This document shows positions 5,487 through 27,532 of a stretch of DNA of 64,000 bases, one piece after another. The translations under genes and the position numbers were made by a program. Source of the DNA: an uncultured Rikenellaceae bacterium (lineage in GTDB: Bacteria; Bacteroidota; Bacteroidia; Bacteroidales; Rikenellaceae); assembly GCA_946486375.1 (NCBI GenBank), contig CAMLTW010000001.1, positions 248,001-312,000 of the forward strand, read 5' to 3'. The notes under the pieces were generated by a model that was given only the letters and a program-made list of their open reading frames with translations, had not been told where the DNA came from and made no database searches. Position 1 is the stretch's first letter. Every line of letters starts with the position of its first letter.

Positions 5487-6023
5487 CTATGCCGTTTTTT
5501 CGGCGGCTCCCGCTTCCTCCAGCAATTCTTTGACCGCATCCATCGCCCGGTCGTAATCGACGTGTTCCCGAACCTGGGGAGCGTATTCGATGTAACGGAT
5601 GATGCCTTTCCGGTCGATGACCACGATCCCGCGGGAAAGGAGGCGCAGTTCTTTCAGGATGAAGCCGTATTTGCGGCCGAAATCCATTTCCCGGTAGTCG
5701 GAGTAGACGTGTCCGTTTTCGATGCCTTCGGCCGCGCAGAAACGTTTCTGCGCGAAAGGCAGATCGGCGGAAATCGACAGCAGGACGACGTCGTCGCCCA
5801 AACGGGAAATTTTTTTGTAAAAGTGTTTGGTCTGCAGGGCGCAGACGGAGGTGTCGATCGAAGGAAAGACGCTGATGATCCGGATTTTGTCGGCGAACTC
5901 GTCGGAAGACACTTCCTCCAGGTTTTCGTCGACGACGGTGAATTCCGGAGCTTTGTCTCCCGCTTCCCGGTGTTTGCCTTCGAGGGTCAGTTCCCTGTCC
6001 CCGAAGAGGACTGTTCTGTGCAT
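5487..6023 (-). CDS. tpx: Thiol peroxidase (Tpx-type peroxiredoxin)
   Basis: Tpx reduces hydrogen peroxide and alkyl hydroperoxides using thioredoxin-derived electrons. The 178-residue product has the atypical 2-Cys arrangement: peroxidatic Cys61 in the motif FPSIDTSVC and resolving Cys96 in RFCAAEGIEN. The C-terminal REHVDYDRAMDAV segment is typical of the family. It is slightly longer than the usual ~165 residues because of an acidic and alanine-rich tail. It is transcribed away from ssb and converges on hsp20, with which it shares a terminator. No regulator site is visible upstream. The assignment is secure from the two cysteine motifs. Confidence 0.95.
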   Translation of the reverse strand: MHRTVLFGDRELTLEGKHREAGDKAPEFTVVDENLEEVSSDEFADKIRIISVFPSIDTSVCALQTKHFYKKISRLGDDVVLLSISADLPFAQKRFCAAEGIENGHVYSDYREMDFGRKYGFILKELRLLSRGIVVIDRKGIIRYIEYAPQVREHVDYDRAMDAVKELLEEAGAAEKTA

Positions 6024-9226: not shown

Positions 9227-9628
9227 TCAGTCCTTGTTTTTCGTTTGCTTTCGCAGTCTGCGAAAGAGGTATTGTTGTCCCACCAGCAGGATCAATGCTT
9301 CGAGTCCGATCATGCCCCAGAACGGGTAAGGATTTTCCCCGCTTTCCGACCCGGAGGCGGGCAGGAGGGATGAAAGGGACGGAAATGCAGGCAGCAGCTC
9401 ATAGCGGAGCAGGAAAAAGACCGCACAGCCGAGCAGCACAGCCGCCGTTCCGCCCAACGCGATCCAAAGCGCGATTTTCAACTGTTTTTGTCGGCGGGCA
9501 TGCCGAAGAGTCGCTTCCCGGAGTATGCGCGTTTCCAGTCCCGAAGGGAGCGGATATTCGGGAAGTTCCCGGAAAAGTTCCGCCAGTTCCGTGTCGAAGG
9601 CGGATGTATGTAAGCGGTCGTTTTTCAT
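9227..9628 (-). CDS. Putative anti-sigma factor (two-helix membrane protein)
   Basis: The gene overlaps the end of the ECF sigma factor gene by four bases (ATGA), the usual coupling of a sigma factor to its membrane-bound inhibitor. The 133-residue product has a ~50-residue N-terminal cytoplasmic part rich in charged residues, a transmembrane helix near 52-74, a short external loop, a second helix near 103-121 and a basic tail (RRLRKQTKNKD). It has no HxxxCxxC zinc motif, so it is not a classical ZAS-domain anti-sigma factor. The anti-sigma role is inferred from position and topology, not from homology I can recognise. Confidence 0.6.
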   Translation of the reverse strand: MKNDRLHTSAFDTELAELFRELPEYPLPSGLETRILREATLRHARRQKQLKIALWIALGGTAAVLLGCAVFFLLRYELLPAFPSLSSLLPASGSESGENPYPFWGMIGLEALILLVGQQYLFRRLRKQTKNKD

Positions 9629-10194
9629 AGTTCCGTCGTTTGTATGTTTTCGATCAGAGTGCCGAGTTTCCGGCGGATGCGGTGCAGTTTCACCTTGATG
9701 TTCGAAGCGGAGTATCCCGTGATATCCGCCAGTTCCTCCACGCTTTTGCGGGCGGTATAGAACAGGGAAACGATCATCGCTTCTTCCGTCGGAAGCCGGG
9801 ACAGGGCCGTTTCCAGCGCGGACAAAAGCGCTTCCCGCTTGCCGGAAGCGTCTTCACCCTGCCACGGGGCGTTCGTGTCCGGAATTCGTTCCTGAGCCGT
9901 TTCATCCGCAAACGGCATTTCCCGTTTCCGTTTCCGGTATTTGGAAACGGCGCAGTTGTAGGCGATCCGGTAGAGCCAGGTCGAAAAAGAACTTTCCCCG
10001 CGGTAGCGGCCGATCCGGTCGAACGCTTTCAGGAAAACGTCCTGCGTCAGCTCTTCGGCGTCTTCCCGGCTTCCCACGATTCGGCGGATCAGCGTGAATA
10101 TCGGCGTGCCGTACCGTTTCATCGTTTCCCGGTAAGCGGCCGTATCTCCTGCCTGAATGCGCGCGATGAGTTCCTTGTCGTCCGTTGTGGTCAT
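9625..10194 (-). CDS. ECF (sigma-70 family group 4) RNA polymerase sigma factor
   Basis: This 189-residue protein has the two sigma domains of the extracytoplasmic-function class. Region 2 (about residues 22-95) includes SREDAEELTQDVFLKAFD and SSFSTWLYRIAYN. Region 4 (about 120-175) includes RLPTEEAMIVSLFYTARKSV and the helix-turn-helix YSASNIKVKLHRIRRKL. The acidic linker between them is longer than in the shortest ECFs. The start ATG lies only a few bases after the predicted transcription start of its own ECF-type promoter (10207-10232), implying autoregulation and a very short leader. The downstream overlapping gene is its likely anti-sigma partner. The stress signal is unknown. Confidence 0.93.
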   Translation of the reverse strand: MTTTDDKELIARIQAGDTAAYRETMKRYGTPIFTLIRRIVGSREDAEELTQDVFLKAFDRIGRYRGESSFSTWLYRIAYNCAVSKYRKRKREMPFADETAQERIPDTNAPWQGEDASGKREALLSALETALSRLPTEEAMIVSLFYTARKSVEELADITGYSASNIKVKLHRIRRKLGTLIENIQTTEL

Positions 10195-10206
10195 CTCTGT
10201 CGAATA

Positions 10207-10232
10207 GACGCCGCTTTTCCGGGAAGGTTACA
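10207..10232 (-). promoter_or_regulatory. ECF-type promoter reading into the sigma factor gene
   Basis: On the minus strand TGTAAC (10232-10227) is followed by exactly 16 bases and CGTC (10210-10207), the classic -35/-10 arrangement of several ECF sigma factors. The predicted transcription start is near 10200, just before the ATG at 10194. Confidence 0.7.
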
Positions 10233-10271
10233 CTTTCAGCCGAAAAATTTTTTTCGGCTGAAAGTGTAACC
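10226..10271. repeat. Perfect 46-base palindrome between divergent genes
   Basis: Arms of 22 bases (10226-10247 and 10250-10271) are perfect reverse complements around a TT centre. Each outer end carries a TGTAAC -35 element pointing outward. The centre is an A/T run. There is no T-run after the stem, so it is not a simple terminator. Confidence 0.9.
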
Positions 10272-10290
10272 GGATGAAGTTTCCGGCGTC
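10265..10290 (+). promoter_or_regulatory. ECF-type promoter reading into the DUF6249 gene
   Basis: TGTAAC (10265-10270), 16 bases, then CGTC (10287-10290): the same elements and spacing as the promoter on the opposite strand. The predicted start of transcription near 10298 leaves about 36 bases before the ATG at 10334. Confidence 0.7.
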
Positions 10291-10333: not shown

Positions 10334-10753
10334 ATGATGGATTTTATTACCGCACCCGCAATCGTCGGGATTGTCGTACTCGGAATTTACAAATTGTTCG
10401 AGTTGTACGCACGCCGTAGGGAACGCCTGACCATTATCGAAAAAACGGATTTCATGTCGAAGGAACCTTGCCGGCTCCCTGCTCTGGAAGGCGGAAGCGG
10501 ATGGGGACAGTTTTTCTCCCTGCGTCTCGGCTCCCTGCTGGTCGGAATCGGAGTAGGATTGCTGCTGGGTTTCATGCTGGCTTCCGTCACTTCTCCGGCC
10601 GGATTCAACGAATTGTATGCCGCTCAAAGGGGTTCGCAGGCCAAAGAGCTTTTTAGCGGAATCTATGGGGCGAGCGTGTTGCTGTGCGGCGGACTGGGAC
10701 TGATCGTTGCCTTTGTGCTGGAACGGAGAATACAAAGAAAGGATCGGGATTGA
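10334..10753 (+). CDS. DUF6249 family small inner-membrane protein
   Basis: The 139-residue product begins with a hydrophobic helix (residues 5-24), then a charged cytoplasmic stretch (YARRRERLTIIEK), a glycine-rich helix at about 65-85 and a third near 110-130, ending in basic residues. It resembles DUF6249 proteins, whose function is not known. It is transcribed divergently from the ECF sigma factor gene through a mirror-image copy of the same ECF promoter, so it is probably a direct target of that sigma factor and part of the envelope response. A second ATG three bases later would work equally well. A strong terminator follows. Confidence 0.7.
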   Translation: MMDFITAPAIVGIVVLGIYKLFELYARRRERLTIIEKTDFMSKEPCRLPALEGGSGWGQFFSLRLGSLLVGIGVGLLLGFMLASVTSPAGFNELYAAQRGSQAKELFSGIYGASVLLCGGLGLIVAFVLERRIQRKDRD

Positions 10754-27491: not shown

Positions 27492-27532
27492 AAAGAAAAG
27501 GGAACGGTCGATTCGACCGTTCCCTTTTCTTT
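27492..27532. terminator. Bidirectional terminator between the arabinofuranosidase and valS
   Basis: A perfect 20-bp palindrome (27492-27511 with 27513-27532) around a single T. The outer parts are AAAGAAAA and TTTTCTTT, giving a T-rich tail in both directions for these convergent genes. Confidence 0.92.

Follow-up and report, generated by a model that had tools for sequence, protein, structure and literature searches.

In autoregulated ECF sigma/anti-sigma operons of the RpoE-RseA, AlgU-MucA and SigW-RsiW type, the sigma gene is followed by that of a small membrane protein whose N-terminus is cytoplasmic, and the operon has an ECF-type promoter of its own in front. The locus described here, found in a 64-kb window (the whole stretch of DNA that was analysed), resembles these systems in gene order, in the layout of the membrane protein and in the promoter, the -35 and -10 elements of which, with a 16-bp spacer, resemble those of the SigW/SigM class. 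It differs from them in that the putative anti-sigma factor matches no curated Pfam anti-sigma family, a DUF6249 gene diverges from the common control region, and there are few other sites per genome, so that the regulon appears very small. ECF sigma factors paired with membrane anti-sigma factors are also known from gut Bacteroidales, as EcfO-Reo and CirY-CirZ of Bacteroides and Phocaeicola; Reo spans the distance from cytoplasm to cell surface, and a spy chaperone gene follows cirYZ (PMC13114119). The P. vulgatus locus of the present sigma family (L047) differs in its small partner of 125 amino acids and in having no adjoining spy-like gene, and identity with CirYZ was rejected on the latter ground. 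Promoter motif 2 of Bacteroides thetaiotaomicron, with non-canonical -30 and -10 elements, has been proposed as a target of alternative sigma factors, possibly of the ECF type (PMC7366714, PMC12596196); unlike the present promoters with TGTAACC and GCGTC, its description has a TGTT element close to -10. A literature search on DUF6249 found one mention, in an unrelated plant study, and none linking the family to ECF control.

The genes and sites of the locus are as follows, in window coordinates:

9227-9628, minus strand: putative membrane anti-sigma gene (133 aa), a conserved neighbour; function predicted from position, alignment and a structure model
9625-10194, minus strand: ECF sigma factor gene, identified by Pfam, NCBIfam and relatives of solved structure
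10207-10232, minus strand: predicted ECF promoter of the sigma operon, with TGTAAC at 10227-10232, CGTC at 10207-10210 and a 16-bp spacer; conserved at 77 of 79 sigma loci
10226-10271, no strand: perfect palindrome with 22-bp arms and a TT centre; not conserved in relatives
10233-10264, no strand: 32-bp interior between the -35 elements with a central A/T tract, a possible shared upstream element; A/T run in 88 of 113 interiors
10265-10290, plus strand: predicted ECF promoter of DUF6249, with TGTAAC at 10265-10270, CGTC at 10287-10290 and a 16-bp spacer; conserved at all 71 loci that have a divergent DUF6249 gene
10334-10753, plus strand: DUF6249 membrane protein gene, above the PF19762 cut-off, with alignment and structure model

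The sigma factor matches Sigma70_r2 (5e-17) and Sigma70_r4_2 (7e-10) of Pfam above their cut-offs, and sigma-70 regions 2 and 4 are its only domains, as is characteristic of ECF sigma factors; it also exceeds the cut-off of the TIGR02937 superfamily (NCBIfam) and aligns with solved chains of SigH, SigW and SigE. The adjoining putative anti-sigma gene overlaps the sigma gene by 4 bp. Alignment and a structure model of moderate confidence (mean pLDDT 79) give its product the layout of an anti-sigma factor, with a short helical N-terminus, predicted to be cytoplasmic, followed by two membrane helices. No Pfam family matches this protein, its NCBIfam match is weak and far below cut-off, and no curated anti-sigma domain is among the Pfam families shown for 28 members of its group; we infer that it is the anti-sigma factor of the neighbouring ECF sigma. 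The divergently encoded protein matches PF19762 (DUF6249) with 39.9 bits (cut-off 33; E 4.5e-10), and its structure model is likewise of moderate confidence (mean pLDDT 76). Between the -10 element and the sigma ATG lie 12 nt (10195-10206); the median over the collected loci is 11 nt. At so short a distance the sigma mRNA should be nearly leaderless, a property that appears conserved among those loci.

The window contains just two exact copies of TGTAAC-N16-CGTC, at 10207-10232 (minus strand) and 10265-10290 (plus strand), and the scan bears out the initial annotation in finding no further copy; nor is there another site with one mismatch, where 2.8 matches at one mismatch or fewer would be expected by chance. 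Both copies of TGTAAC are inside the palindrome and hence mirror images by construction, and they are therefore not independent evidence for two promoters; within the window that evidence consists of the two CGTC elements, which lie outside the palindrome at equal spacing. Relatives were collected with only the sigma protein as query, blind to the DNA; this search yielded 80 loci, all titled Bacteroidota, most of which have the order sigma gene, small membrane protein gene and divergent DUF6249 gene. The proposal that two divergent ECF promoters serve the sigma operon and DUF6249 held in this sample: the sigma-side motif, with a spacer of 16 or 17, is present at 77 of the 79 sigma loci with enough upstream sequence (spacer 16 in 76), and the DUF6249-side motif, with a spacer of 15-17, at all 71 loci with a divergent DUF6249 gene, 70 of which have both motifs. 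A conserved bipartite promoter of almost fixed spacing upstream of the sigma gene is what characterizes an autoregulated ECF operon. The consensus of both sides over 106 loci is TGTAACCt-N12-tGCGTC(t/a)AA; a promoter consensus is thereby available for an ECF family that is spread across Bacteroidales and apparently uncharacterised. Throughout this bacterial order, a stress-type sigma operon and the adjoining membrane-protein gene keep the divergent layout of two copies of one promoter.

A blind scan of about 390 genomes of the order for divergent pairs agrees with these counts. Patterns in which the interior gap was 8-38 or 39-69 matched in 18 and 24 genomes, respectively, and a reversed-pattern control matched nowhere in the same genomes. 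Among 40 matches that were fetched, 39 adjoin a sigma gene of the same family as that of the window and 38 show a divergent DUF6249 gene, one stretch being cut by a contig end. The sole divergent TGTAAC-N16-CGTC pair among the 40 without an adjoining sigma of this family is at locus L130 (genome G313). We consider it very likely that the two sites of the window form a divergent pair of promoters used by this ECF sigma, and we infer that both are controlled jointly by the adjoining sigma itself. That the motif pair is instead a chance resemblance to ECF promoters, produced by duplication of one arm, would account for the presence of both -35 copies within the palindrome, where they are not independent; the CGTC elements, however, are outside it and equally spaced, and the same pair recurs at the orthologous site almost everywhere, which leaves this explanation with practically no probability.

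A genome-wide search for the motif, which the initial annotation had recommended, pointed to the same locus: TGTAAC-N16-CGTC has nine matches in the genome of the window (reversed control, three), and the full consensus TGTAACC-N14-GCGTC occurs only at the two window sites. In three Bacteroides and P. vulgatus, TGTAACC-N15-CGTC has 2-4 matches per genome, two of which are always those of the sigma/DUF6249 locus. With so few consensus sites per genome, the regulon may be small and self-centred, comprising little beyond the sigma factor's own operon and DUF6249, although weaker sites would have been missed by such a search. A membrane protein family of unassigned function belongs to this likely minimal regulon, and genetically tractable gut Bacteroides offer a setting in which the sigma factor, its likely anti-sigma factor and DUF6249 can be tested together. 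In P. vulgatus (L168, 1501-1526), a full-consensus TGTAACC-N14-GCGTC lies about 68 bp upstream of an outer-membrane beta-barrel-like gene, a possible additional member of the regulon.

The proposed mechanism has the following steps: a signal would relieve the putative anti-sigma factor, freeing the sigma factor to join core polymerase; the holoenzyme would read TGTAACC-N14-GCGTC outward on both strands, with the A/T-rich interior probably serving as a shared upstream element; and the sigma/anti-sigma operon and the divergent DUF6249 gene would be activated together from the twin promoters, in positive autoregulation limited by the anti-sigma factor encoded in the same operon. Inverted -35 elements a few tens of base pairs apart, flanking an A/T core, by their nature form a quasi-palindrome, the inner part of which was most likely perfected in the window lineage by a template switch or inter-arm copying, the resulting palindrome being tolerated. 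This reading as a whole, in which the site is the divergent promoter pair of one ECF sigma and its palindrome a product of copying, appears to us well favoured.

The palindrome of the window was described correctly in the initial annotation, and re-reading of the sequence gives the same 46 bp (10226-10271) with outward TGTAAC-N16-CGTC on each side: arms at 10226-10247 and 10250-10271 pair at 22 of 22 positions around a TT centre at 10248-10249, and symmetry breaks at both ends. No other perfect inverted repeat with a loop of at most 15 in the 64-kb window is as long. Conservation in relatives, which the initial annotation had named as a condition of its reading, divides the site: the promoters and their spacing are kept and the palindrome is not. 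Among 113 divergent pairs, 110 have a longest in-register complementary run of 6-15 and three have one of at least 22, namely the window (22), Bacteroides rodentium (L062; 23) and a genome of the same family as that of the window (L095; 29). The nearest available relatives of the sigma factor (L012, L013, L092 and L093; 53-57% identity) lack the palindrome, and in the two of these with DUF6249 (L013 and L093) the promoters are 264 bp apart. The three long runs do not cover the same part of the site. The symmetric part comprises the interior and the -35 elements in the window; the outer interior, the -35 elements and five bases beyond them in B. rodentium; and the stretch from -35 to just past -10, around an asymmetric interior, in L095. 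At this last locus (approximately 1410-1490) the two promoters match base for base over 29 bp, forming a perfect inverted duplication on either side of a 30-bp interior that lacks symmetry; this is a third, distinct case of arm homogenisation at the sigma/DUF6249 locus.

Symmetric parts that vary among three loci are not predicted by one selected operator and are predicted by sporadic copying of one arm onto the other. Nearly all of the homologous sites have inverted -35 elements, and B. muris, the sister of B. rodentium, has an imperfect form of the B. rodentium inverted repeat. Comparison with B. muris and outgroups suggests that several symmetric bases in B. rodentium are ancestral, so that several small steps, and not one switch, are possible there. 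Template switching is established to perfect quasi-palindromes in E. coli (PMC7202029), and template-switch mutations at imperfect inverted repeats have been inferred in evolution (PMC8794818). The present case is like these in that an imperfect inverted repeat has apparently been made more perfect by copying of one arm, and differs in being deduced from comparison of species, not observed as mutation. Sporadic template-switch homogenisation of the inverted -35 repeats is, on the compared sequences, a better fit than a regulator site; the window palindrome probably arose when a template switch during replication, or a comparable event, copied one arm onto the other, and is itself probably incidental and lineage-specific, not a regulatory element. 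A slight excess of interior dyad pairing over shuffled expectation across the loci (454 versus 401, with two outliers left out) may be explained by a layout with A on the left and T on the right. The locus is a caution against taking every striking perfect palindrome at a promoter for a regulator site, since such symmetry can arise as a side effect of inverted promoter elements.

The initial annotation had suggested that the palindrome might be a regulator site. An operator at which a dimeric or tetrameric protein represses or co-activates both promoters at once would suit its perfect dyad, centred exactly between the two -35 elements with 15 of 16 interior pairs, and the second interior palindrome in B. 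rodentium. The latter, however, differs in sequence, with no half-site in common (CTTTCAGCCG in the window, GATTTCCGG in B. rodentium); in L095 the symmetry lies outside the interior, which is itself asymmetric; and a non-exhaustive search of the conserved module found no regulator gene besides the sigma factor and its neighbour. Absence of a long palindrome from the nearest relatives and from 110 of the 113 homologous sites, with arms of at least 22 bp in only three and over different parts of the site, makes such an operator improbable. Control of expression by an RNA hairpin or cruciform is a still poorer prospect. The very stable single-strand fold that might recommend it follows from perfect symmetry and so is no evidence of function, and the palindrome, besides not being conserved, matches no Rfam family, on which ground a known RNA element was rejected. 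The transcript hairpin that had been envisaged on the DUF6249 side is unlikely for the further reason that the predicted starts of both ECF transcripts, a few bases after CGTC, fall outside the palindrome, so that neither transcript would contain it.

Spacing of the -35 elements in helical phase has also to be weighed, by which two polymerases, or a polymerase and a shared upstream factor, would interact across the dyad and the palindrome would be an extreme symmetric upstream element. The gaps between TGTAAC elements cluster at 11-18, 23-27, 29-38, 39-50, 53-55 and 64-67 (near 24, 34, 44, 54 and 65 bp), and an A/T run of 8 or more is present in 88 of 113 interiors; outside the main mode, agreement with a 10.5-bp phase has a V-test p of 0.002 after thinning at 75% identity and 0.009 at 65%. 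The p value rises, however, to about 0.05-0.07 with heavier thinning and is 0.07 for phylogenetically independent pairs; the period was picked after the data had been seen, making the analysis exploratory; and loci with gaps of 78-99, and one of 264, still have both promoters. A control for periodicity on the distance from -10 to ATG was uninformative, that distance being nearly constant. A periodicity of about 10.5 bp in the spacing is suggestive but unproven, and since it loses significance as phylogenetic thinning becomes stricter we keep helical phasing only as a weak rival, which we regard as unlikely. A more elaborate version is a conserved back-to-back ECF module in which two holoenzymes share the A/T-rich upstream element in helical phase, with mechanical coupling of the sigma operon to DUF6249 and with the palindrome as the most symmetric form of the shared element; this we consider doubtful. 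The spacing may also be influenced by basal promoters specific to particular lineages. TAnnTTTG, the form taken by the housekeeping -7 element of Bacteroidetes (PMC7366714), occurs inside the interior on the sigma strand in 23 of 113 loci (for example L030, L045 and L050), where it is possibly a basal promoter, and on the other strand in 2; it is absent between the -35 elements of the window.

Two other symmetric sequences were observed in the window. The second-longest inverted repeat with a loop of at most 15 (27492-27532; 20-bp arms flanked by A and T runs) lies between the convergent glycosidase-like and valS genes and looks like a two-way terminator. A 22-bp perfect palindrome, CGCGCAGAAACGTTTCTGCGCG, is located at 5733-5754 within a peroxiredoxin-like coding sequence (5487-6023, minus strand).
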